Shown here: positions 34,101 through 61,358 of the stretch, in pieces
Layout: each line of letters starts with the position of its first letter
Numbering within the stretch: position 1 is the first letter of the stretch
Source: a virus
Virus record (IMG/VR): IMGVR_UViG_3300030329_006012
Coordinates: 62,001 to 126,000 of that record
Strand: one strand, 5' to 3'
DNA length: 64,000 bases
Notes under the pieces: generated by a model
What the model was told of the DNA's origin: nothing
Databases searched by the model: none
Seen by the model: only the letters and a program-made list of their open reading frames with translations
Program-made: the position numbers and the translations under genes

Positions 34101-35309
34101 ATGAAGTGTTTCGTTACACTGGACGACAAAGAAGAATGCGTAGGCGTATTCAGCAACGGTGAACTTTCTTTTTCGCATATTCCCGCTGGGTTAACTCACA
34201 CTTGGGAGTACAGCCGCTCTCTGCTATCTGCTGACGTTAATGATGCCGAGCTGGCCATCATATACGCCAACGGTGCAACGCTGACTGATGTCTGCCCACC
34301 GCACCTTCAAAAAGAGTGGTCAGCGATAATGAAGCGCATGAAGGCTTATCAAAATTCCTTTATAGAGGCAAAGGTTGATTTGGGAGAGAACTGCATCTTT
34401 GATCTTATTCCGCTGAGCTACTTGACCAAGTTTTGCCACCTGAAAACGGAGATCACTAAGCACGTTTTTAAAACGGCAGATAAGCCGGAAAATTATGATT
34501 TCATGAAAGGGTTGGTGCACCTGTTGGCCGAGATATCTCAAAGGAAAATTAAGCTCAATCTCGACTCCATAGAACGGAATATTTTAACCAAAAGGGCCAG
34601 AGACTTTTGCGCCGACATTCGCTCTGGGAAAAAGGACTCTTTTGTCAGGTACGATCCCTTTAAGACGAGGACTGGTAGACTTTCGGTTAAAAAGGGATCC
34701 TTCCCGATACTTAACTTAGACAAGGAATTCCGCTGCGCCGTGGAACCAACGAACGACTGGATAATGGAGCTGGATTATAATGCAGCTGAACTGAGAACAC
34801 TTCTGGCTCTCGCAGGAAAGGAGCAGCCCACAGAGGATATTCATAAATGGAATTCAGACATTCTGAGCGTATCAAGAGACGAAGCGAAAAAGTCCGTCAT
34901 ATCTTGGCTGTATGGCTCGAAGACATCCGATATTGGCGAAAAGCTTTCGCAGATGTACGCAAAAGAGGAAGTTCTAAATAAATTTTATGATCCCGAAAAA
35001 GGGATCGTCACAACCCCTTTCGGGAGAAAGATCTCAGCAGACGATCACCACGCACTGAATTATCTGGTTCAGAGCACCACTGCAGATCTGGTGTTTGACC
35101 GAATGTTGGAGATCCGGGATCTATTAAAGGACAAAAAAAGCTTCATCAAATTCTGTCTCCACGATTCAGTGGTGATCGATTTGGCCCACGAGGAGAGGGA
35201 TGTAATTAAAGAGGTTTTTAATATTTTTGCAGACACCAAGCTGGGGGCATTCAAGCCCTCGATTAGTGCGGGAACCAATTTCGGCTCCTTAAAGGATTTT
35301 AACATTTAG
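34101..35309 (+). CDS. A-family DNA polymerase lacking 3'-5' exonuclease
   Basis: 402 aa. Pol I motifs are all present: T-R-T-G-R-L-S (about 191-197), motif A E-L-D-Y-N-A-A-E-L-R (about 223-232, Asp catalytic), the O-helix R-D-E-A-K-K-S-V-I-S-W-L-Y-G (about 260-273, Arg/Lys/Tyr dNTP contacts), N-Y-L-V-Q-S-T-T-A-D (about 317-326) and motif C L-H-D-S-V-V-I-D (about 353-360, catalytic Asp). The N-terminal 160 residues show no exonuclease motifs. The protein is unusually short for a Pol I-type enzyme, so it may be a gap-filling or specialised polymerase. It sits at the junction between tail genes and replication genes. A separate DnaE-type polymerase is encoded at 46119. Confidence 0.85.
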   Translation: MKCFVTLDDKEECVGVFSNGELSFSHIPAGLTHTWEYSRSLLSADVNDAELAIIYANGATLTDVCPPHLQKEWSAIMKRMKAYQNSFIEAKVDLGENCIFDLIPLSYLTKFCHLKTEITKHVFKTADKPENYDFMKGLVHLLAEISQRKIKLNLDSIERNILTKRARDFCADIRSGKKDSFVRYDPFKTRTGRLSVKKGSFPILNLDKEFRCAVEPTNDWIMELDYNAAELRTLLALAGKEQPTEDIHKWNSDILSVSRDEAKKSVISWLYGSKTSDIGEKLSQMYAKEEVLNKFYDPEKGIVTTPFGRKISADDHHALNYLVQSTTADLVFDRMLEIRDLLKDKKSFIKFCLHDSVVIDLAHEERDVIKEVFNIFADTKLGAFKPSISAGTNFGSLKDFNI

Positions 35310-35344: not shown

Positions 35345-36190
35345 ATGATTAACATTATTGGACTTGGCAAAACAGGCTGTAGTTTAGCTGACGAATTTTC
35401 CAAACATGGTCAATATGACATCTATCGTATTGGCATTGACTTACCAAAGAATAAAAGGTCCAGGGGTATGAAAAAACAAAAGACGCCTGAAGCCTATGAA
35501 GAGAAGTGTCCAACAATGAGGCATTTTTTCAAGGAGCTGACGGGCCGAAGTATCTTGTTGGTGAACGGTGGAGAACCCATTGCAGCTGCTACGCTGAGGG
35601 TTCTGGAGCATTGCCGCCCGTGGTCAACCTCTGTTGTCTACATCCAGCCAGATGAGTCCTCTCTCAATGAGACCCTGCAGGCTTCCGAGAAAGTCATCTT
35701 CAATGTTTTGCAAGAATATGCTCGTTCCGGCGCCATTTCAAAAATGATTCTTGTAGACACCAAAAATGTTGAAGAGGCGATGGGAGACGTTCCAATTATC
35801 GGCTACGAAGAAGTCTTTAATCAATATATCGCATCTTCTCTTAATTTAATAAATTATTTTGAACATTCGGAGCCTGTTTTGAGTGTCGATTCTGAAGGCG
35901 TTGATTGGTCGAGAATCATGACCATAAGTATGATCTCTCTGGAGGAAAAGAAGGAGCACCTTTTCTTCAACCTGGACAACATTCGAGAGAAAATGTATTT
36001 TTGCGGAATTAACGAAGATCAGCTTAGAAACGACAATAAGCTGCTTTCCAAATTAAAGAGCTTTATAGATTCCCAGCGTGAAGGGGATCAAAGAACTTCA
36101 TATAGGGTGTACTCTACAACCTATGAAGAGCCACACGTTTTCTGTGTTCAATCATCGGCGATGATACAGAAGAGATCAAAAGGTGCTTGA
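35345..36190 (+). CDS. divergent FtsZ/tubulin-like protein
   Basis: 281 aa, AGGAGA before the ATG. It aligns by eye to the FtsZ GTPase core. The start I-N-I-I-G-L-G-K-T-G-C-S-L-A-D-E-F matches the first G-x-G-G-x-G-x-N strand and helix. Then L-L-V-N-G-G-E-P-I-A-A-A-T-L-R-V-L-E occupies the place of the tubulin signature loop. S-T-S-V-V-Y-I-Q-P-D corresponds to V-A-V-V-T-K-P, and S-K-M-I-L-V-D-T-K-N-V-E-E to the D-x-L-I-x-I-x-N strand. G-Y-E-E-V-F-N-Q-Y-I-A-S-S-L-N-L-I corresponds to the L-L-D-A-F core helix. The strict G-G-G-T-G-S-G is missing, so nucleotide use may be altered. An NAD-binding Rossmann protein is the main alternative. It has its own sigma-70 promoter and lies next to SSB. Confidence 0.55.
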   Translation: MINIIGLGKTGCSLADEFSKHGQYDIYRIGIDLPKNKRSRGMKKQKTPEAYEEKCPTMRHFFKELTGRSILLVNGGEPIAAATLRVLEHCRPWSTSVVYIQPDESSLNETLQASEKVIFNVLQEYARSGAISKMILVDTKNVEEAMGDVPIIGYEEVFNQYIASSLNLINYFEHSEPVLSVDSEGVDWSRIMTISMISLEEKKEHLFFNLDNIREKMYFCGINEDQLRNDNKLLSKLKSFIDSQREGDQRTSYRVYSTTYEEPHVFCVQSSAMIQKRSKGA

Positions 36191-36215: not shown

Positions 36216-36276
36216 AATAACAACGAACCAGCACTAGGGGAGATTTGCCCTGGTGACTTTAACAGGAGATAATAAT

Positions 36277-37038
36277 ATGGCAATTGATATGAGCAAAATG
36301 CGGGATAGACTAAATACCCTGCAAGCTAAGGGCAACGGTGGCGGATCTTCCGCTTTTTGGCGCCCAAGCGATGGTAGTCAAACTATTCGAATTGTGACAC
36401 CGAAAGACGGAGATCCTTTCAAGGATTTTTATTTCCACTATAATGTGGGCAATAACTCTGGCTTTCTCTGTCCGAAGAAGAACTTTGGCGAAGAGTGTGC
36501 AGTCTGCGATTTCTCTCGCAAATTGTATAAGGCCGGCGATGATGACAGTGTGAAGTCCGCTAAGGAATTGACTGCTCGTCAGCGTTTCTTTTCACCCGTA
36601 ATAGTTCGCGGTGAGGAGAATTTGGGAGTCAAGATTTGGGGCTATGGAAAAATGGCTTACGAAACCTTGTTGAACCTTGTTTTAAACCCAGAGTATGGAG
36701 ATATTACAGATGTGGAGTCGGGAACAGACTTAGACTTACACTACGGTAAGGCTCCAGGCCAATCCTTCCCTCAGACCAAGTTGACGCCAAAGCGTTCTAC
36801 ATCACCGGTCTGTGTAGAGGCTACTCCAGAAGCATGCCAAGAAATCTTGGATTCGGTCCCTGATATTGATTCTCTTTTTGAGAAGAAATCATCCAAGGAA
36901 GTTGCTGGATATCTTGCGGAGTTCATGGAGAGTGGATCTTCGGCCGAAGAAGCCTCTAGGGAGGCGACTAAGTTTGCGCCACCAGCCGGTGCCGAGTCTG
37001 TTGACAAGTCTTTCACTGACTTGTTGGGCAGTGCCTAA
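36277..37038 (+). CDS. single-stranded DNA-binding protein (T4 gp32-like)
   Basis: 253 aa from the ATG at 36277 (AGGAGA upstream). The N-terminus is basic and Gly rich, followed by F-W-R-P-S-D-G-S-Q-T-I-R-I-V, an OB-fold start seen in gp32-like SSBs. A zinc-binding set C-P-K-K-N-F-G-E-E-C-A-V-C is at about 62-74. The C-terminus is acidic and ends S-F-T-D-L-L-G-S-A, as expected for the partner-docking tail. It binds and protects ssDNA and recruits replication and recombination proteins. It is preceded by the strongest sigma-70 promoter in the window and followed by a terminator, so it is likely made in large amounts. Confidence 0.85.
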   Translation: MAIDMSKMRDRLNTLQAKGNGGGSSAFWRPSDGSQTIRIVTPKDGDPFKDFYFHYNVGNNSGFLCPKKNFGEECAVCDFSRKLYKAGDDDSVKSAKELTARQRFFSPVIVRGEENLGVKIWGYGKMAYETLLNLVLNPEYGDITDVESGTDLDLHYGKAPGQSFPQTKLTPKRSTSPVCVEATPEACQEILDSVPDIDSLFEKKSSKEVAGYLAEFMESGSSAEEASREATKFAPPAGAESVDKSFTDLLGSA

Positions 37039-37109: not shown

Positions 37110-38240
37110 TTGGCCACAAATTTGAAAAGTAATAAGAGCAAGCTTGGCATCAAGGGCATCGCTGCAGCTTTGAATAAAAAGAGCGGCATGACCGTTGCAC
37201 ATACAATGGGGGACGATAACCCATCGGCCGTCACTGATTGGATACCTACTGGGTGTACATGGCTCGACGGCATCATTTGTCGAGGAAAAATTGCCGGCAT
37301 CCCCGTCGGCCGCGTAACAGAAATAGCTGGTCTTGAGGGTTCTGGAAAATCGTATATGGCCGCACAAATTGCAGCAGGAGCTACGCAAAAGGGCTTCGAG
37401 GTTGTCTATTTTGATTCGGAAGCTGCATTGGACTTTGACTTCTTAAAAGATGCCGGCGTAATTGAGTCCCTATTCTTGAGGGTCACACCACAATCGGTTG
37501 AAGATATGTTCGAGACAATAGATCTTATTCTTTCTCAGGGCGCAGAGAACACTTTATTTATTTGGGATAGTCTGGCCAATACGCCAACTAAATCTGACAA
37601 TGCAGGTACGTTTAATCCTCAAGAAACAATGGCTTTAAAGGCTAGGATCATCTCCAAGGCGATGCAAAAGTTAACCGTTCCACTGAATGAGTCAAACAGT
37701 ACATTTTTGGTCTTAAACCAGTTAAAAGTACACATCCCAAAGCCCGGAGATCACATCTCTGCGATGATCGACCCTTATGTAACTCCCGGCGGCAAGAGTA
37801 TGCAATATGCGTCATCACTGAGAATTTATTTAACGGGCAGGAAATCTAAAGCCTCTTACATAACCGATGAAAAGGGATTCCGAATCGGCTCAGAGGTTAA
37901 GGCTCGCATTAAGAAATCTCGCTTCGCATCCGAGGGCCGAGAGTGTATTTTTAAGATTCTGTGGGGTGATGAAGTCCGCATCCAAAATGATGAGAGCATC
38001 TTTGAGGCCATCAAGGGCTCCGAGAGGTTAAAAAACGCTGGAGCATGGTATACCCTCATCCACTCAGATGGCTCCGAAGAGAAGTTCCAGTCAAAAATGT
38101 GGCTGGACAAGATGCAAGAAGAGAAGTTTCGTGCTTCGGCAATGGAGGTTTTTGAAAACGAGATTGTCCTAAAGTTCGCGAACAGAGAAGGCGCGGCTTC
38201 TGATTTTTATGACATTGAAGCCGAATCGGACAAGCAGTAG
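37110..38240 (+). CDS. uvsX: RecA/UvsX-like recombinase
   Basis: 376 aa, TTG start 6 nt after AGGAGGTG. Walker A G-L-E-G-S-G-K-S is at about 73-80. A Walker B-type strand is N-T-L-F-I-W-D-S-L-A-N-T-P. The second half contains L-V-L-N-Q-L-K-V and G-G-K-S-M-Q-Y-A-S-S-L-R-I, matching the RecA/UvsX core. The length fits UvsX (about 390 aa). It forms ATP-dependent filaments on ssDNA with the gp32-like SSB encoded just upstream and drives strand exchange and recombination-dependent replication. The SSB terminator lies between the two genes, so it may depend on read-through; no separate promoter was found. Confidence 0.88.
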   Translation: MATNLKSNKSKLGIKGIAAALNKKSGMTVAHTMGDDNPSAVTDWIPTGCTWLDGIICRGKIAGIPVGRVTEIAGLEGSGKSYMAAQIAAGATQKGFEVVYFDSEAALDFDFLKDAGVIESLFLRVTPQSVEDMFETIDLILSQGAENTLFIWDSLANTPTKSDNAGTFNPQETMALKARIISKAMQKLTVPLNESNSTFLVLNQLKVHIPKPGDHISAMIDPYVTPGGKSMQYASSLRIYLTGRKSKASYITDEKGFRIGSEVKARIKKSRFASEGRECIFKILWGDEVRIQNDESIFEAIKGSERLKNAGAWYTLIHSDGSEEKFQSKMWLDKMQEEKFRASAMEVFENEIVLKFANREGAASDFYDIEAESDKQ

Positions 38241-38251
38241 CGGAGATTCCC

Positions 38252-39259
38252 TTGGAAAAGAAAAAAAGATTATTAATAGTAGATGGCATGAACATCTACA
38301 TGCGGAACTATAACGCAAACCCCAGCATCTCGACAAATGGTGATCCAATTGGCGGATGCAAAGGATTCCTGATGTCCTTGCAAAAGATCTGTCGGGAGAT
38401 CGACGAGGATATAAGTGCGATTGGGAAAATCGTAGTGGTTTGGGATGGCGTGGATGGAAGTGTCCGCAAGAGAAAGATGAATCCAGCCTACAAAGACGGC
38501 CGCAAACCAGTTCGCCTTAATCGAATGGTGCGAGGTCTTCTCACTGAGGAGCAGGAGATAGCCAACAGAGCGTGGCAGTTCGACAATGTTGTTCATTATT
38601 TGGACTTTTTATCGGTGCACCAGATAAGGATCGATGGGTTCGAGGCTGATGACATTATCTCTTATGTAAACAACCTCCCTCAGTTTGAGGACTGGGATAG
38701 AATAATTGTCTCGACAGACAAGGACTTCTACCAATGTACTTTTTCGTGCGGACATGGGAAGACTGTTATTTATAGGCCCAAAGAAAAAGGTGCCTTTGAG
38801 CTTATTGGGGAAAAGACAATACTTGACTCCTTTGGGATCCACCCCCTAAACTTTGCTATAGCGAGAGCCATCGAGGGAGATAAATCAGACAACCTCAAGG
38901 GCGTCCCCGGAGTTGGCCTAAAGACACTCGCGAAGAGGTTCCCTTGGCTGGCTAACAGCGAGGAATATATGGTTCAGGACATTTTGGCAGATTGCGAGAA
39001 GAACGCTGGCAAATTAAAGATGTACGATAACATAATAGAGAATAAAGAATTGATTTTAAAAAATTACCAGATTATGCAACTCTCTATGCCGAACCTATCC
39101 CCGCAAGCCACTCGACAAATAAGATCACAATTGGAAGACGAGCCGCTATTTAATAAGACGGCCATCACTACCATGATGATCAAGGATGGCTTTGGAAGCG
39201 GAAATTGGGACGTCCTATTTCAGATCATGAAACGACTTACGGCTAATTCTTTATTCTAG
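38252..39259 (+). CDS. 5'-3' exonuclease / flap nuclease (Pol I N-terminal domain type)
   Basis: 335 aa, TTG start with GGAG upstream. Metal-binding motifs of the family are present: L-L-I-V-D-G-M-N (about 7-14), V-V-W-D-G-V-D-G-S with N-P-A-Y-K-D-G-R, G-F-E-A-D-D-I-I (about 129-136), I-V-S-T-D-K-D-F-Y-Q (about 151-160) and E-G-D-K-S-D-N-L-K-G-V-P-G-V-G, the H3TH DNA-binding segment. Counterpart of T4 RNase H, which removes RNA primers and trims flaps. It works with the separately encoded polymerases. It lies 11 nt after uvsX and 8 nt before the helicase gene. Confidence 0.88.
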   Translation: MEKKKRLLIVDGMNIYMRNYNANPSISTNGDPIGGCKGFLMSLQKICREIDEDISAIGKIVVVWDGVDGSVRKRKMNPAYKDGRKPVRLNRMVRGLLTEEQEIANRAWQFDNVVHYLDFLSVHQIRIDGFEADDIISYVNNLPQFEDWDRIIVSTDKDFYQCTFSCGHGKTVIYRPKEKGAFELIGEKTILDSFGIHPLNFAIARAIEGDKSDNLKGVPGVGLKTLAKRFPWLANSEEYMVQDILADCEKNAGKLKMYDNIIENKELILKNYQIMQLSMPNLSPQATRQIRSQLEDEPLFNKTAITTMMIKDGFGSGNWDVLFQIMKRLTANSLF

Positions 39260-39267
39260 GAGAGACG

Positions 39268-40644
39268 ATGAAGAGAGAGACACCAACTTTCGCCCACTTT
39301 GGAAAGACCTTTCAGGAAGGTCTGGCTCGGCTCATCATGGATGAAAGAGTTTTTTCGGATCAGATCAGTGATGTGCTGGATGTGGAATTTTTCGAACACC
39401 AGTATCTGAGAGTGTTCACGCGCCAAATCCTGCAGTATAAAGAAAAGTATGATTCCCATCCTACCCGATCCACAATTGCCTCTGTCCTCAATATAGACCT
39501 GAAGGATGAGCCCGAAGTGGTGGTAGAACAGGTCAAGAGCTTTTTTGCAAGAGCGACTGCCACTCACGATGAGGTGGAAAATTCACAGTTCATTAAGGAC
39601 CACTCTTTGGACTTCTGCAAGAGGCAGAAAGTCAAAGAAGCAATGTTGAAGAGCGTTAGTCTTGTAGATAAGTGCAGTTTTGAGGAAGTTGAAAAGACCC
39701 TTACGGATGCCCTTAAACTTGGGGTGGACAATGATCACGGCCACGACTACAAGAGGGACAAGGAAGATAGATATGTTGTTCGGTCAAGAAACCCAGTTTC
39801 AACTGGCTGGTCAGAAATCGACTCTCTCCTTCGCGGCGGACTTGGGAGGGGAGAATTGGGTGTCATAATTGCCCCAACTGGCGTTGGTAAGTCAATGGCC
39901 CTCGTTCACCTTGGAGCACAAGCAGTTCAGCAGGGACTTAGTGTGATTCACTATACACTAGAAATGCCAGCCGAAGATATTGGCCTCCGCTATGATGCGT
40001 GTATAACCCAGACACCGCTGCGCTCTCTGCATGGACTGAAGGATGATATTCTAGAGGAGGTAGATAAGGTTCCTGGAAGTTTGGTTGTCAAAGAATATCC
40101 CACTAAGTCGGCCTCTTCCCTGACCTTGAAGGCCCACCTTGATAAGCTCCGACGCAGAGAAGTTCCGATTGATATGATTATTGTAGACTACGGAGACCTT
40201 CTGAGAGCAAAATCTACCCAGCGTGAAAAGAGGCATGAGTTAGAATCAATATACGAAGAGATCAGGGCCCTTGGGATGGAGCATAAGTGTCCGGTATGGA
40301 CGGCATCTCAGACCAACAGGTCGGGAGTAGAGGCAGATCTCGTTGGAACCGAAACAATTGCAGAGGCTTTTAGCAAGTGCCACGTGGCAGACTTCATTTG
40401 CGGCCTGTCTCGCACCACCACCCAAAAGAACAACAATCAGGCGACCATGAATGTTTGCAAGAATCGCGGCGGCCAAGACGGTCGCATTTTTCCAATGCTT
40501 ATGGATACCTCTCGCGTCCGGCTAGAAGTGCTCCCATACCAGGGCGACACCCCAGAAGGAATCAGGGCCATCAACGCAAAAGAACAACACGAACACCTTC
40601 AGTCTCAATACAAAGAGTTGATGGGAAGTCAAAAAAGGTCTTAA
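39268..40644 (+). CDS. replicative DNA helicase (DnaB / T4 gp41-like)
   Basis: 458 aa. The N-terminal 170 residues are helical, as in DnaB. The RecA-like motor domain has S-T-G-W-S-E-I-D-S-L-L-R-G-G-L, Walker A A-P-T-G-V-G-K-S (about 202-209), Y-T-L-E-M-P-A-E, Walker B D-M-I-I-V-D-Y-G-D-L-L and W-T-A-S-Q-T-N-R-S (sensor region). The hexamer unwinds DNA 5' to 3' ahead of the fork. No primase gene is recognised in the window. It is the last gene of the uvsX-exonuclease-helicase run. Confidence 0.88.
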   Translation: MKRETPTFAHFGKTFQEGLARLIMDERVFSDQISDVLDVEFFEHQYLRVFTRQILQYKEKYDSHPTRSTIASVLNIDLKDEPEVVVEQVKSFFARATATHDEVENSQFIKDHSLDFCKRQKVKEAMLKSVSLVDKCSFEEVEKTLTDALKLGVDNDHGHDYKRDKEDRYVVRSRNPVSTGWSEIDSLLRGGLGRGELGVIIAPTGVGKSMALVHLGAQAVQQGLSVIHYTLEMPAEDIGLRYDACITQTPLRSLHGLKDDILEEVDKVPGSLVVKEYPTKSASSLTLKAHLDKLRRREVPIDMIIVDYGDLLRAKSTQREKRHELESIYEEIRALGMEHKCPVWTASQTNRSGVEADLVGTETIAEAFSKCHVADFICGLSRTTTQKNNNQATMNVCKNRGGQDGRIFPMLMDTSRVRLEVLPYQGDTPEGIRAINAKEQHEHLQSQYKELMGSQKRS

Positions 40645-46060: not shown

Positions 46061-46085
46061 CAACTAGATGGTTTTCGATTATAAT
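46057..46085 (+). promoter_or_regulatory. perfect sigma-70 promoter for dnaE
   Basis: TTGACA (46057-46062), 17-nt spacer, TATAAT (46080-46085), exact in both boxes. It fixes the dnaE start: an in-frame codon at 46068 would lie within the promoter. Confidence 0.9.
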
Positions 46086-46118
46086 AAGAAGATGCTACAA
46101 AAAACCCCAGGAGAAAAA

Positions 46119-49100
46119 ATGACAGAAGTTAAGCGAGAAACACCGAAAGTAAAATACGTGGGACTCCACGCACACAGCGTGGCAGGCTCACCCTTCGATG
46201 CATTGGGCTACCCCAACGAGCACATGGAGTCTGCCTATAATAATGGCATGGACGCGCTCGCGCTGACAGACCACGGCAACATGAATGGTCTCGCCTATCA
46301 GGTCCTCCACGCAAAAAAGATGCACTCCCAAGGGAAGGATTTTAAGCCGATCTATGGTTGTGAGGCATATTTTGTACCTAGTTTGAAGGAATGGCATGAA
46401 GAAAAGGAAGCGGCGGTACTAGATAAGAAAAGGGCCAAAAAAGATGCCGAAGCAACAGGGACAACCGTCGAAGACGAAGAAGCTAGTAAGAGTGCTGTTA
46501 AAGACATTCTTTCTCGGCGTAGTCATCTTGTTCTTGTTGCCGCTAATCAGACGGGCCTAAATAACTTATTCGAGATGATTTCGAAGTCTTATACGCCCGA
46601 AAATTTTTATAGATACCCTCGCATTGATTTCGATACACTAGCAGAGCATAGCGAGGGTATTATTGTATCAAGTGCATGTATGGGCGGCGTTTTCGCCAGT
46701 GACTATTGGAAGAACCGAGAAGAAGGTGAAGAGGCAGTTTTGGAAGCCATGCGGAAAACCGCAACCCGATTCAAAGAAATCTTCGGAGGCAACTTCTACG
46801 GAGAGATTCAGTGGAACGCAATCCCCGATCAACATGCCATTAACAAATTTGTGATTAAGGTCTGTGGCGAGTTGGGAATCGAGCTTGTCTCCACTTCTGA
46901 CAGCCACTACCCTAATAAGGAAGTGTGGAAAGACAGAGAACTCTATAGAAAACTTGGCTGGCTCCGCACAGGACTCGAAGAGGCCACGCTTCCCGAAACC
47001 ATCGATGAGACCCGATGCGAACTCTACCCCAAGAATGGCGATGAGATGGTGGAGGCAATTCGCAAATACTCCAATCCAGACAATTGGATTTACCGCGAAC
47101 GAGATACGCCTGTATTTCCTAGCGACGTCGAGTATGACGAGCAGCTCATGATAGAGAGTGTTGAGCGCACATACGAGATCGCACATGAGAAGATAGATTC
47201 CTTTTTCCCAGACAACACTGTACGACTACCAGAATTTGTTGTGCCAGAAAACATGAACGAGGATGATGCCCTCTATATATATGCCAAGAATGGCATGAAG
47301 GCCCGTGGCCTTGTGGGGAACAAACAATACGAAGAGAGGATGGAGAAAGAGTTCGATGTCATTTCTTCTCGCGGCTTTAGTAAATACTTTCTGACCATGA
47401 AGGCCATCTCTGACAAGGCTCAAGAGGTCCAGCTCGTCGGTGCCGGACGTGGCTCTGCTGCAGGGTCTCTCATCGCCTATTGCCTTAACATCACTCAGAT
47501 TGATCCCATCAAGTATAATCTTCAGTTCGAGAGATTCCTCCGCAAAGACGCCGTGGATTATCCCGATATCGATTATGATGTCGCTGATCCGATGGAGCTC
47601 AAGGATATGCTTATCGATGAGTGGGGAGACAACGTGGTGGTCCCAATTTCGAACTGGAACACACTACAGCTTCGCTCACTCATCAAGGACATTTCCAAGT
47701 TCTACAACATCGACTTCTCAGAGGTGAACACGGTCACAGGCCGCATGCTCAGCGAGGCAACGCCAAGGGCGAAGGAGGCCAATGGCATCGCAGCTGGTGT
47801 CTACACCCCCACCTTCGAGGAGGTGATGGAGTATTCAGATAGTCTAAAGAATTTTCTAATCAAATACCCGCACGTCAAGACGCATGTTATGCGTATCTTT
47901 GGCAGTGTTCGGTCGTGCTCTCGACACGCAGGCGGAGTCTTGGTCGGCGAGGACTTGGACAAATATATGCCCCTCATCGCTTCCGGTGGTGTGCGTCAAA
48001 CACCGTGGAGCGAGGGCCAGAACGTGCGGCACTTAGAGCCAATGGGTTTTATTAAGTTTGATATCCTTGGTCTCGCTTCTTTGCGAATGATCGAAGGCGC
48101 CATACGCCACATCTTAAAGCGCAAGTATAAGGTGGAAGAGCCAAGCTTTGACGATGTAAAGGAATATTACAATAAACACCTTGACCCAAGTGTGATTGAT
48201 TTTGATGATCAGTCGATCTGGGAGGGAATATTCCACAAGGGCAAATGGGCCGGCGTATTTCAGTTCACGCAGCAAGGCGCACAGAAATTCTGTACGGAAG
48301 TCAAGCCAACGAACTTGGTCGACCTCGCAGCCATTACTGCAATCTACCGTCCGGGGCCCTTATCTGCAGGCGTCGCAAAGGACTATACGGCAGCAAAGCG
48401 AAGTCCAGAAAATATTGAGTACGGCCACCCCGTTATCAAGGAGTGCCTTGAGGAGACTTGCGGGTTTATTGTTTTTCAGGAGCAACTGGCTCTTCTGGCA
48501 CACAAGCTCGGTCGCGACGTCTCTCTTGATGAGGGCAACATGCTTCGTAAGCTTCTAACCAAGAAGGGTACCGGCAAAGGAGCCGAGACTCTTGAGGTGA
48601 TTCGCCTTAAGTTTGTCGATGGTTGTGTGGACAAGGGAATAACCGAACAACAGGCAATGGAAATATGGGAAAAGATGGAGTACTTCTCTGGGTATGGCTT
48701 TAACGCCTCTCATGCGGTTTCCTATGCGACCCTATCTTATCAGTGCGCGTGGCTTCTCCACTACTACCCAGTGGAGTGGGTTGCAGCCTTCTTGGACAAG
48801 GAACCCGAAGGCCGCAAAGAGGCGGCCATCAATATGGCCAAGAGTCTAGGATTTAGAATCGAGGCACTGAACGTCAACACTTCGGGAAAGGTTTGGGAAA
48901 TCTCAGAAGATGGCCAAGCCCTAATTCAGCCACTCACTTCGGTGAAGGGTTTGGGTGATGCAGCAATTGACCAAATCTTCAATGGCAGACCTTTTAACAA
49001 GATTGAGGATTTCCTTTTCAATGAGGAAATTACATACAGCAAGCTGAACAAAAAGGCGCTGGATGTATTGGTTAGGAGTCAGGCTCTCAACTCCCTTATG

Positions 49101-49586
49101 GATAGCAGGTTCTCAGGCTTGAAGCACTATTGGTCGTGTGTTGCCGTTAACAGACCTCGCAAGGAGAAGGACCTGGAGGACAACATTGCTGTTTATACGC
49201 CGGAGGGAGACTTCTCCATCGAGGAAAAGATAGAGTATCTAACGGACCTGACAGGCGTGTTTCCAATGCACTTGGTGATGGACGACGTGATCAAAGAGAG
49301 ATTAGGCGACCACTGCGTTCCGCCCATCTCTGAGTATGATCCGGATCTTGGCCTTGTTTGGTTCATCCCTCGAAAGGTCATCCCTCGAAAAACCAAAAAT
49401 GGCAAGACGTACTGGGTAGTTGAGGTGATTGATGATAATAGTGTTTTGACAAAGATAAAGTGTTGGGGCGTGAAGCCAAGGGATACTTTACAACTCAACA
49501 GGCCATACATGGCCAAGCTTGATCACAGCGATCAGTGGGGATTTTCATCGCGCAGCATTTACCACAACTTTAGGATTCTTGGATGA
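46119..49586 (+). CDS. dnaE: C-family DNA polymerase III alpha-like (DnaE)
   Basis: 1155 aa, close to bacterial DnaE (about 1160). The ATG at 46119 follows AGGAG and the upstream promoter. The PHP domain (about 10-260) has H-A-H-S and L-A-L-T-D-H-G-N-M-N-G. The palm has G-R-G-S-A-A-G-S-L, the catalytic pair Y-P-D-I-D-Y-D (about 481-487), S-R-H-A-G-G-V-L-V and the third catalytic Asp in I-K-F-D-I-L-G-L (about 645-652). The fingers end with Y-G-F-N-A-S-H-A-V-S-Y, and an HhH and OB-like C-terminus follow. A DnaE in a T4-like phage that also carries an A-family polymerase is unusual. It probably replicates the genome with the SSB and DnaB-type helicase. A recognisable sliding clamp or loader is not in the window. 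Confidence 0.92.
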   Translation: MTEVKRETPKVKYVGLHAHSVAGSPFDALGYPNEHMESAYNNGMDALALTDHGNMNGLAYQVLHAKKMHSQGKDFKPIYGCEAYFVPSLKEWHEEKEAAVLDKKRAKKDAEATGTTVEDEEASKSAVKDILSRRSHLVLVAANQTGLNNLFEMISKSYTPENFYRYPRIDFDTLAEHSEGIIVSSACMGGVFASDYWKNREEGEEAVLEAMRKTATRFKEIFGGNFYGEIQWNAIPDQHAINKFVIKVCGELGIELVSTSDSHYPNKEVWKDRELYRKLGWLRTGLEEATLPETIDETRCELYPKNGDEMVEAIRKYSNPDNWIYRERDTPVFPSDVEYDEQLMIESVERTYEIAHEKIDSFFPDNTVRLPEFVVPENMNEDDALYIYAKNGMKARGLVGNKQYEERMEKEFDVISSRGFSKYFLTMKAISDKAQEVQLVGAGRGSAAGSLIAYCLNITQIDPIKYNLQFERFLRKDAVDYPDIDYDVADPMELKDMLIDEWGDNVVVPISNWNTLQLRSLIKDISKFYNIDFSEVNTVTGRMLSEATPRAKEANGIAAGVYTPTFEEVMEYSDSLKNFLIKYPHVKTHVMRIFGSVRSCSRHAGGVLVGEDLDKYMPLIASGGVRQTPWSEGQNVRHLEPMGFIKFDILGLASLRMIEGAIRHILKRKYKVEEPSFDDVKEYYNKHLDPSVIDFDDQSIWEGIFHKGKWAGVFQFTQQGAQKFCTEVKPTNLVDLAAITAIYRPGPLSAGVAKDYTAAKRSPENIEYGHPVIKECLEETCGFIVFQEQLALLAHKLGRDVSLDEGNMLRKLLTKKGTGKGAETLEVIRLKFVDGCVDKGITEQQAMEIWEKMEYFSGYGFNASHAVSYATLSYQCAWLLHYYPVEWVAAFLDKEPEGRKEAAINMAKSLGFRIEALNVNTSGKVWEISEDGQALIQPLTSVKGLGDAAIDQIFNGRPFNKIEDFLFNEEITYSKLNKKALDVLVRSQALNSLMDSRFSGLKHYWSCVAVNRPRKEKDLEDNIAVYTPEGDFSIEEKIEYLTDLTGVFPMHLVMDDVIKERLGDHCVPPISEYDPDLGLVWFIPRKVIPRKTKNGKTYWVVEVIDDNSVLTKIKCWGVKPRDTLQLNRPYMAKLDHSDQWGFSSRSIYHNFRILG

Positions 49587-55830: not shown

Positions 55831-57402
55831 ATGAAGAAATACAATAATGGCAACGACTTAGCCGAAAGAATTCTTTCTGGCGTGAACAAGCTTGCGGACA
55901 ACGTGGCATCAACAATGGGCCCCGGAGGTCGTAATGTTATTTTGCACCAAAAGGGTGGCAACCCCATTATCACCAAAGACGGTGTAACGGTCGCCAAGTT
56001 CGTGGAGTTTGAAGATCCCTTTGAGAACGCGGCCGCGCAAATTATTAAGCAAGCATCCGAAAAAACGAATTCACTCGCCGGCGATGGCACCACCACCGCC
56101 ACTGTTCTGGCACGTGCCATTCTCACTAACGCACAAAAATACTTAAAGGCCGGTTCTAACCCCGTTGACCTTAAGCGAGGCATAGACCAAGCGGTTGAGT
56201 CCGTAGTTGACTCTGTGTCTGAGCAGTCAAGGCCCATCTCCAGCGAGGAAGACATTGCAAACATTGCGACCATTTCTGCCAATGGAGATACTTCCATTGG
56301 AGACTTGGTAGCCAAGGCAGTAGACTTGGTTGGGAAAGATGGGGCCATCACTATACAAGAGGCTCGCTCTCATGAGACCACGCTGGATGTGGTCGAGGGC
56401 TTTAGATTCGACAGCGGGATCTGTGCCAATGCTCTTATCACCGACGAGCGTCGAGGGATATCTAAGCATGAGGATGCACTGGTTCTTGTTACCGACTCTT
56501 CGATTGAAACTGTAGAACAAATTTTCCCACTTCTTGAGGTCGCGGCCAGAGAGAGTCGGCCACTCGTGATTGTTGCAGAGAACGTAGAGGGGCAGGCCCT
56601 TGCCGCACTTATCATGAACGCCGTCCGTGGCACCATGAAGGTGTGTGCAATAAAAGCCCCACGTTATGGCGAAGAGCGCAGAAACATATTGAGCGACTTG
56701 GCCCTGTCCGTCGGTGCCACCTTTGTATGCCGGGAAAGCGGCATGAGACTGCAGGATGCAAACCTTGAACATTTGGGGAGAGCCAAGACCGTAGAGGCAA
56801 GTAAGTATAACACTACGATTGTCGGTGGGAACGGAAACCAAGAAGATATTGATCACCGCATCGGAACCCTAAAATCATCCATGACTGAAGTTGAGGATTT
56901 GCGAGAGTGTGAAAAAATACAAGAAAGAATCACGAGACTCTCCAGCGGCATCGCCATAATCAACGTCGGTGGCGCCACAGAAGTAGAGATGATCGAGAAG
57001 AGGCATCGTATCGAGGATGCCCTATCCGCAGTAGACTCAGCGCAGGTTGAAGGCATCGTTGCCGGCGGCGGAACTGCTTTAGTAAATGCCTCCAGATCTC
57101 TTGACCGCTTGTCATCTCGCAACGAGGATCAGGGACTTGGAATTGAGATAGTCCGCAAAGCTTTAGAGGAGCCATTGCGACAAATGGTCAAGAACTCAGG
57201 CAAGTCTGCAGATGTAGTACTCGAAAAGGTGAAGTCTTTCAAATCTCCCCACAAGGGTTACAACGTCGCCACCTCCAGGTACGAAGATCTGGTATCTACT
57301 GGTGTTCTAGATCCAGCCAAGGTCACAAAAACCGCCCTTCGGAACGCAGCTTCAGCCTCCTCAGTTTTGCTGACAGCCGACTTCGCTATTATCGAAAGTT
57401 AG
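55831..57402 (+). CDS. groEL: phage-encoded chaperonin GroEL (Hsp60)
   Basis: 523 aa, slightly shorter than bacterial GroEL (about 547). Family landmarks: S-T-M-G-P-G-G-R-N-V-I-L (about 29-40), K-D-G-V-T-V-A-K, the ATP-site motif G-D-G-T-T-T-A-T-V-L-A (about 84-94), the apical-domain I-V-A-E-N-V-E-G-Q-A-L-A and K-A-P-R-Y-G, V-G-G-A-T-E-V-E, and V-A-G-G-G-T-A-L (the C-terminal nucleotide loop). It lacks the Gly-Gly-Met tail. It likely folds phage capsid or polymerase proteins. A GroES-like protein is encoded at 43404. It has its own sigma-70 promoter. Chaperonins are common in cells but rare in phages. Confidence 0.95.
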   Translation: MKKYNNGNDLAERILSGVNKLADNVASTMGPGGRNVILHQKGGNPIITKDGVTVAKFVEFEDPFENAAAQIIKQASEKTNSLAGDGTTTATVLARAILTNAQKYLKAGSNPVDLKRGIDQAVESVVDSVSEQSRPISSEEDIANIATISANGDTSIGDLVAKAVDLVGKDGAITIQEARSHETTLDVVEGFRFDSGICANALITDERRGISKHEDALVLVTDSSIETVEQIFPLLEVAARESRPLVIVAENVEGQALAALIMNAVRGTMKVCAIKAPRYGEERRNILSDLALSVGATFVCRESGMRLQDANLEHLGRAKTVEASKYNTTIVGGNGNQEDIDHRIGTLKSSMTEVEDLRECEKIQERITRLSSGIAIINVGGATEVEMIEKRHRIEDALSAVDSAQVEGIVAGGGTALVNASRSLDRLSSRNEDQGLGIEIVRKALEEPLRQMVKNSGKSADVVLEKVKSFKSPHKGYNVATSRYEDLVSTGVLDPAKVTKTALRNAASASSVLLTADFAIIES

Positions 57403-59426: not shown

Positions 59427-61358
59427 ATGGCAAGAATTAAATTTTTATTTATTTTATTACTTCTTCCTGCCACAATTTCCTGTCAGGGGTGTGATGAGGA
59501 GTTGGTGCGCGTTTGTCCACCACCTGTTGATTGCATCGTTGACGAAGACGGGAACGTAGAGACCCTCACCTCCATCGTCAAGATGCACACTGACGTTGGC
59601 GAGTGCAACATCGGCCGCACCGAATGTGATGAGGACACCAACCTCGTTTGCGTCGGCTATGTCACTCCCGCACTGGAAGAGTGCAACTCCAAAGACGACG
59701 ACTGTGATGGCCTCATCGACAATGGTATTTCTTGGGACAAAGATGGCGATGGTTTTAATTCTCTCACATCCTGTCTCAATCCTTCTGATTGTGATGACGA
59801 CAATGCGTACATCAATCCAGGACATAATGAGATCTGTGATGGGCTCGACAACAACTGCGACAGCGTGGTAGATGACATCAGCCCCGTGGAGTGCTGGACA
59901 GGCAGCGTAGATGCTATCCTTGACGGAACAACCCCTTGCGAGACTGGCACGATGGAGTGTACCAATGGCACATGGACCAACTGCCAGAACCAAACCCTTG
60001 ACGAACTAGAGCACTGTGATGGCTTAGATAATGATTGCGATGGCACCATTGATGAAGACCCCGTTGAATTATCGACAGCCATCCAGAGGATGTGCGGCTA
60101 TAATGATGTGGGTATCTGTGCTTATGGCACCAAGTATTGTGTCGAGGGAGATGTCAAGTGCTTCGATGCGATTATGCCAGAGAACGAAATCTGCAACAAC
60201 ATCGATGATGACTGCGATGGCTCCAAAGATGAGAATTTATATCAACCATGTGAAAGCATATGCGGAGAAGGCATGGAAGTTTGCCATGCAGGAAGCTGGG
60301 AAAACTGTACAGCACCACTCCCTCAAGTTGAGTTGTGCGATAACATCGACAACGATTGCGACGGAGAGATTGACGAGGGGTGTTTGTGCATCAAGGACGA
60401 TGTTCAGGTATGCCGCGAAGACATTTACGACGCTGACGGCAACCTTGTGAACTGCGGCTATGGCATGCAGGTCTGTGATGAGTGGGGAATCTGGGGGCCA
60501 TGCATCTACCAAGGCATTGAGCCAGAAATTTGCGACAACTGGGACAACGACTGCGATGGCAACATCGATGGTATCGTTTCCATGTGTGGCAACAACCCGA
60601 ACCTCCACGGAATTGGGCAGTGTCAGATGGGCACAACCACCTGCGAAGAAGGTACATGGGGCAACTGCGAAGGCGAAGTTCTCCCCGAAGAAGAGATCTG
60701 TGATCAAATCGATAATGATTGTGACGGAGAGATTGATGAGGAGCTTAACGCTCACGAGAAAGTGGATATGGTTTTTATCATCGACACCTCTGGCTCTATG
60801 TGTCCGTACATCGAGGCACTCCATCAGGGCATCGCTGCATACGTTGCCGACTTCGAGGAAACCGAACACCGCTTCGGACTCATTATACATCCCAGTCAGT
60901 GGCACTCAAATATCCACGGAAACGCCGTACTCATGACATCAGCAGGTATGGTAGACGCTGCAGGACTCTCAAGCCTTCTGGCCGCCCTTGGCTGCAATGG
61001 CGGAGGATGGGAGAGGACGACAGATGTTGTGATGGCAGTTGTTGATCCTGCAAACCCACTTGGAATTCCCTGGAGAAGCGACGCTTATCCTTATGTTATC
61101 AGCATTAGTGACGAAGGTCCACAAACATCTTACAGCAATTACCCTTATGACGTTGGCGCGTTTGCATCTAGTTGTCAAATCGCCGGATGCCAATCAGGAG
61201 ATGAGGTGGAGATTTACTTTATTGACCAGTTGAGCTCGCTTACCTCTTGGATGGATGCAGCGTTTTTTGATCCCGCAAGAACAATAGATATTCACCCGCC
61301 TTCTGGGTCTCGCTATACAGAAATTTTAAGAAATATTTTTCAAGATGTTTGCTTTTAA
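59427..61358 (+). CDS. secreted lipoprotein with MopE-type Cys/Asp repeats and vWA domain
   Basis: 643 aa. The start R-I-K-F-L-F-I-L-L-L-L-P-A-T-I-S-C-Q-G is a signal peptide with a lipobox-like Cys at about 20. Then follow at least eight MopE-type units (D-D-D-C-D-G-L-I-D, D-G-L-D-N-N-C-D-S, D-N-D-C-D-G-E-I-D and similar), Cys-rich and Asp-rich and probably metal binding. After about 430 residues comes a vWA-like domain with F-I-I-D-T-S-G-S-M (MIDAS D-x-S-x-S). Such architecture is typical of surface proteins of deltaproteobacteria and related bacteria and is very unusual in a phage. It may be a host-derived gene used in surface change or superinfection control. The next small gene overlaps its end. 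Confidence 0.75.
   Translation: MARIKFLFILLLLPATISCQGCDEELVRVCPPPVDCIVDEDGNVETLTSIVKMHTDVGECNIGRTECDEDTNLVCVGYVTPALEECNSKDDDCDGLIDNGISWDKDGDGFNSLTSCLNPSDCDDDNAYINPGHNEICDGLDNNCDSVVDDISPVECWTGSVDAILDGTTPCETGTMECTNGTWTNCQNQTLDELEHCDGLDNDCDGTIDEDPVELSTAIQRMCGYNDVGICAYGTKYCVEGDVKCFDAIMPENEICNNIDDDCDGSKDENLYQPCESICGEGMEVCHAGSWENCTAPLPQVELCDNIDNDCDGEIDEGCLCIKDDVQVCREDIYDADGNLVNCGYGMQVCDEWGIWGPCIYQGIEPEICDNWDNDCDGNIDGIVSMCGNNPNLHGIGQCQMGTTTCEEGTWGNCEGEVLPEEEICDQIDNDCDGEIDEELNAHEKVDMVFIIDTSGSMCPYIEALHQGIAAYVADFEETEHRFGLIIHPSQWHSNIHGNAVLMTSAGMVDAAGLSSLLAALGCNGGGWERTTDVVMAVVDPANPLGIPWRSDAYPYVISISDEGPQTSYSNYPYDVGAFASSCQIAGCQSGDEVEIYFIDQLSSLTSWMDAAFFDPARTIDIHPPSGSRYTEILRNIFQDVCF
59680..60750 (+). repeat. 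MopE-type repeat region
   Basis: Repeated C-x-x-x-D-N-D-C-D-G-x-I-D-E/G units at irregular spacing, with Cys-containing linkers of about 30-55 residues. Repeats are clear at protein level but only partial at DNA level. Confidence 0.75.

Follow-up and report, generated by a model that had tools for sequence, protein, structure and literature searches.

FtsZL, a 281-amino acid (aa) protein encoded in the 64,000-nucleotide stretch of viral DNA analyzed here (the window), is predicted to be a member of the tubulin/FtsZ fold superfamily, with two domains and a central helix H7. Its gene is conserved in a large phage family, occupies a constant position between the genes of a small family A DNA polymerase (PolA) and a gp32-like single-strand DNA-binding protein, and has lost the GTPase signatures of tubulins. 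We suggest, with a probability of about 45%, that FtsZL is a highly diverged tubulin-fold protein that serves as a core structural, adaptor, or scaffold subunit of the phage replication machinery and probably does not hydrolyze GTP.

The FtsZL family and its operon

All motifs quoted in a preliminary description of this DNA were present in the translated open reading frame (ORF): GLGKTGC and VNGGEPIAAA (Table 1) as well as DTKN (residues 138 to 141) and GYEEVFNQY (residues 153 to 161). FtsZL is a real gene, since it has relatives at 27 to 76% identity and since synonymous change is far above nonsynonymous change. For the window gene and its close relatives, pS was 0.77 to 0.90 and pN was 0.16 to 0.20; for one pair of members (L003/L004), dN/dS was ~0.07. 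The gene is thus under purifying selection. The lowest identity to the window protein within the family was 27%, and the most diverged member was L105. Single-sequence patterns revealed 18 loci, while alignment revealed at least 583 viral-contig stretches encoding a relative (583 of the 599 pattern-matching stretches among the matches listed).

Sequence-only searches of Pfam, PHROGs, Protein Data Bank (PDB) sequences, and phage isolates yielded nothing convincing. The window protein had no significant match, and the family no consistent match, in Pfam or PHROGs; no match was found among phage isolates. We found no mention of the family in the open-licence PMC literature searched. The FtsZL clade is a large group of uncultured phages; our impression from the context of isolates and contigs is that most of them may be marine. 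We do not assign a host to them, as the sole match in a bacterial genome sits in phage-like synteny inside a WOR-3 metagenome-assembled genome (MAG). The MAG “chromosome” carries FtsZL together with the phage operon at this locus (L115, CP070664.1:2243228-2260046), which may be a binned or an integrated phage and provides a weak host lead. No tRNA genes were found in pieces spanning a whole 190-kb record (G000).

Table 1. Features of the FtsZL locus and of the second tubulin, T2. Positions are those of the window unless a locus is named.
Feature	Position	Strand	Remarks
Small PolA, 402 aa, directly upstream of FtsZL	34101..35309	+	PF00476 E 2.4e-11
FtsZL, 281 aa, predicted tubulin/FtsZ-fold protein with degenerate GTPase motifs	35345..36190	+	ATG start; ORF and predicted model
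T1-like glycine loop GLGKTGC, residues 6-12	35360..35380	+	G6 76/77, G8 77/77, G11 71/77, C12 63/77
Place of T4 (tubulin signature), VNGGEPIAAA, residues 73-82	35561..35590	+	Family form ~[SN]G[SGA][GE]x[IV]S[GA]A
H5 motif VLQEYARSG, residues 121-129	35705..35731	+	Q123, R127, S128 invariant in 77 sequences (a set partly recruited with the motif)
Core helix H7, residues 154-173	35804..35863	+	DSSP of model
Place of T7/H8, residues 178-190	35876..35914	+	No NxDxxD, no helix in model
gp32-like single-strand DNA-binding protein, downstream of FtsZL	36253..37038	+	PF08804 E 9.8e-13
UvsX/RecA recombinase	37110..38240	+	
5'-3' exonuclease	38252..39259	+	
DnaB-like replicative helicase	39268..40644	+	
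T2 examples	L117:1399-2448 (G002:C1:117210-118247); L118:988-2028		

The location beside replication genes, pointed out in the preliminary description, was confirmed: PolA is encoded upstream, and gp32, UvsX, the exonuclease, the helicase, and also NrdA are encoded downstream. The label “T4-like” given there fits the gp32/UvsX-type genes but not the polymerases, which are of family A and PolIII-alpha-like. The latter, which carries a PHP domain, is encoded at 46068-49586 alongside the 402-aa family A enzyme. The window also encodes a GroEL-type chaperonin (55831-57402; PF00118 E 4.9e-71) and a 643-aa protein with MopE-type metal-binding motifs (59427-61358; PF11617 E 4.5e-29). In the same phage record, a 784-aa Lon protease with all domains (L113:10428-12782) is followed by a gene with a QueC-like segment (L113:12840-15374).

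The gene order is PolA (~400 aa)–FtsZL–gp32–UvsX–exonuclease–DnaB, occasionally interspersed with further ORFs. By script, polA lay directly upstream of FtsZL in 70 of 78 distinct loci, and the downstream gene was gp32 in 77 of 83; after manual correction, these numbers became 77 of 78 and 83 of 83, L048 being the single locus without a recognized polA. Four exceptions of each kind were minus-strand loci with the same order, and the other corrected loci had extra sequence or an ORF between the genes (L004, L071, and L075; L005 and L021). The commonest gaps between polA and FtsZL were −12 and −3, and overlaps of a few bases were frequent, which is consistent with translational coupling. All seven large records examined initially (167 to 203 kb) contain FtsZL, and two of the seven contain T2, a second tubulin considered below.

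The operon (polA, gp32, RecA, exonuclease, and helicase) recurs in the nearest isolates, Flavobacterium Immutovirus (phage immuto) and Microcystis phage Mel-JY01, where other small ORFs fill the slot between polA and gp32. Neither the FtsZL profile nor PF00091 matched anywhere in the two records. Since these isolates manage without FtsZL, the protein is not a general requirement of a replisome of this type. The polA-gp32 gap of the isolates (L187:1346-1801 and L186:3867-4256) encodes a 129- to 151-aa protein with a shared VHRKKESNT.YTIN motif. Common ancestry of this ORF with FtsZL is unsupported (profile E values of 0.15 and 0.41 with filters off).

Predicted fold and GTPase motifs

An AlphaFold2 model of FtsZL built from an alignment of 64 sequences had a pLDDT of 92.8 and a pTM of 0.91. 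The elements, in our naming, follow the order S1-H1-S2 through H7 to a C-terminal beta/alpha domain. The top Foldseek matches of the model were Staphylococcus aureus FtsZ (E 7e-12) and Bacillus cereus TubZ (E 1e-11), with TMq of ~0.7. VIA-align Z scores were 23.7 for CetZ, 22.7 for FtsZ, 22.6 for TubZ, and ~21 for tubulin, the alignments extending from residue 1 up to residues 271 to 281 and including both H7 and the C-terminal domain. Among the matches listed, every solved structure belonged to the tubulin/FtsZ family; therefore, the resemblance to FtsZ goes beyond chance motifs. Viral structural matches included an FtsZ-like protein of an uncultured phage (E 5.6e-12) and PhuZ. The whole-length match (Z of 21 to 24) upholds the earlier proposal that the protein follows the FtsZ core.

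The outcome that was to speak against this proposal, an NAD-binding Rossmann fold without a tubulin-like core helix, did not occur. Some family members do have weak Pfam NAD-binding matches (TrkA_N, best E 4.9e-5, and F420_oxidored), and the window protein matches an NAD-binding family over its first 27 residues only. Yet, with H7 and a C-terminal domain in a high-confidence model whose listed structural matches are all tubulin/FtsZ, it is most improbable that FtsZL is an unrelated dinucleotide-binding enzyme resembling FtsZ, and we reject an NAD-binding identity on the basis of the predicted fold.

Sequence profiles detect FtsZL only at the edge, so the fold call rests mainly on one predicted model. 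Profile comparison, proposed earlier as a check, was in register with FtsZ and with T2 but weak. When compared by hhalign, FtsZL scored 30.0 (E 0.002) with WOR-3 FtsZ. With the T2 profile it scored 23.8, and this alignment covered 161 columns in the correct register. Control scores reached 21.5 for 43 other ORFs, 19.9 for 60 column-shuffled T2 profiles, and 22.9, over 17 columns, for the reversed T2 profile. The curated cut-off of PF00091 was not reached by FtsZL (the best of 64 members had an E value of 0.053), the window's own genome gave no PF00091 match up to E 10, and FtsZL did not match the PHROG 4733 (PhuZ) profile.

GTPase motifs were assigned by secondary-structure order and weak profile alignment. 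At the place of T4, another loop, typically of the form GSGxISGA and apparently shorter, is present throughout the family. The GGGTG[ST]G signature was not found, and GGxTG was present in 0 of 92 distinct members. The altered tubulin signature noted in the preliminary description is thus borne out and is a trait of the whole family rather than a peculiarity of the window phage. At the place of T7, NxDxxD was present in 0 of 64 members; helix H8 is absent at residues 182 to 190 of the model, and the T7/H8 region is ~5 residues shorter than in FtsZ or T2 by hand count against E. coli FtsZ (L106) and T2. The best-conserved FtsZL motif is QEY[AT]RS on H5. Its invariance is partly biased, since part of the 77-sequence set was recruited with the motif itself; the motif is kept in the seven FtsZL proteins examined from contigs found with T2 and the full profile.

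At the probable guanine-contact positions, which we placed by helix order and by the weak register of the profile alignment, the family consensus is N139 (57 of 77), an aromatic residue at 155 (Y in 45 and F in 8), and N159 (60 of 77); the window protein has T139, E155, and N159. Since T1 is largely kept and these residues are consensus, it is possible that nucleotide binding survives in many members. In several T2-bearing genomes, the T1 of FtsZL is eroded (e.g., IALGDTATK), yet QEYARS is kept. Judging from the motifs, canonical GTP hydrolysis by FtsZL is unlikely.

A second tubulin and the role of FtsZL

T2 was discovered when whole records were searched with PF00091, which revealed it in two FtsZL phage records. 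The protein is ~349 aa long, contains the motifs GVGGGGGK, GGGGGTGSA, and SFDSKDL, and matches PF00091 at the cut-off, PHROG 4733 (E 5e-4), and CetZ/FtsZ chains (best E 1.5e-8). By these sequence features, T2 is a canonical phage tubulin present in a subset of FtsZL phages. It was found in 47 viral loci with variable gene neighborhoods and had no match among phage isolates. FtsZL was present on 10 of 11 T2 contigs tested, the exception being a 59-kb record. The window's genome and a further four FtsZL records of 167 to 191 kb yielded no T2, although records may be incomplete.

This co-occurrence, together with a conserved Arg before the presumed S8 in both proteins (R249 in T2 and R190 in FtsZL), would fit a role of FtsZL as a pseudo-tubulin partner, which might cap or nucleate T2 filaments or bring them to the site of replication. 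We consider such a role unlikely; the five FtsZL records in which T2 was undetected mean that the partnership cannot be the general role of FtsZL. Slightly less probable still is a host FtsZ antagonist or decoy that caps or poisons the Z-ring and halts division during infection. Capping of a filament is conceivable for a protein that has the FtsZ-like fold but a broken lower interface. However, FtsZL is very distant from FtsZ (about 10 to 15% identity), diverges down to 27% identity within its own family, and has its constant place in the replication operon, not among host-takeover genes. The loss of T4 and T7, the lack of H8 in the model, and the polA/gp32 linkage also argue against a co-polymer with FtsZ.

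A more serious alternative, although we find it doubtful, is a true PhuZ/TubZ-like cytomotive filament that positions or segregates replicating DNA and handles nucleotide via T1 and unusual T4/T7 loops. Consistent with it are the full tubulin fold predicted for FtsZL, the conservation in most members of the T1 glycines and of the probable base-contact positions, and the occurrence of T2, from which it is clear that phage tubulins are tolerated in this clade. PhuZ-type tubulins are reported to position phage DNA (PMC4244570). However, the T4 signature and T7 motif are absent in the members examined, T1 is further decayed in several FtsZL proteins of T2-bearing genomes, and FtsZL is a core gene, in contrast to the accessory PhuZ. 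A standard GTP-driven filament of the PhuZ/TubZ type is made less likely by the loss of T4 and T7, by the absence of H8 from the model, and by the almost invariable association with polA and gp32.

Given the constant polymerase-gp32 position, the core status, and the lost GTPase hallmarks, we prefer, with modest confidence, a structural part in replication to a filament driven by GTP. FtsZL and the small PolA, whose genes are adjacent and often overlap, would be produced jointly. The conserved surface at the end of H5 (QEY[AT]RSG) and the remaining faces of FtsZL would bind one constant partner, the simplest candidates being PolA, gp32, and FtsZL itself. FtsZL, possibly in the form of a short oligomer insensitive to nucleotide, would hold or organize the replication complex. 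Against this reading, genes neighboring polA need not encode partners of PolA, the isolates that share the operon manage without FtsZL, and the largely kept T1 and the consensus base-contact residues may still support nucleotide binding. A more specific proposal, that FtsZL is a fixed GTPase-independent replisome subunit, a pseudo-tubulin at the replication fork, and that members which also encode a canonical tubulin are two-tubulin phages, is tentative.

Phage tubulins described so far (PhuZ and TubZ) form GTP-driven filaments and have intact signatures, and PhuZ is dispensable. FtsZL is a tubulin-fold core gene tied to a polymerase and gp32, devoid of GTPase hallmarks, and present on hundreds of uncultured phage contigs. 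If it acts in replication as suggested, the tubulin fold would be linked to DNA replication itself, and FtsZL would be a natural test of the role of this fold without GTP hydrolysis. A cytoskeleton-type protein may thus have become part of the DNA-copying machinery.

Comparison with known tubulin-like proteins

Since T4 and T7, two defining motifs, are both lacking, we do not file FtsZL as FtsZ, TubZ, or PhuZ. With CetZ and FtsZ, it shares the predicted whole-chain fold (N-terminal GTPase-type domain, H7, and C-terminal domain) and a T1-like glycine loop. It differs from them in falling below the PF00091 cut-off and in lacking GGGTG[ST]G, NxDxxD, and, in the model, H8; its 281 aa are about 9 to 14% identical to CetZ/FtsZ. 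TubZ, a plasmid and phage partition protein, matches the model with a Z score of 22.6 over 276 residues, but FtsZL is ~100 residues shorter, its GTPase motifs are degenerate, and its neighbors are PolA and gp32. The best viral structural match, A0A6J5RW92 from an uncultured Caudovirales phage (TMq 0.76), is annotated as FtsZ, is 452 aa long, and is 12% identical to FtsZL. T2, which shows a weak in-register profile match to FtsZL, differs in its canonical GGGGGTGS and SFDSKDL motifs, its PF00091 match, its length, and its variable neighborhood.

The phiKZ-type PhuZ (PHROG 4733) is likewise a phage-encoded tubulin-fold protein, and the FtsZL model matches PhuZ of phage Noxifer in BFVD (E 7.7e-6). 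PhuZ retains the T4 motif and the T7 Asp (PMC10299810, PMC3678025). It is accessory, being missing from a third of Chimalliviridae (PMC10299810), whereas FtsZL is a core gene of a replication operon.
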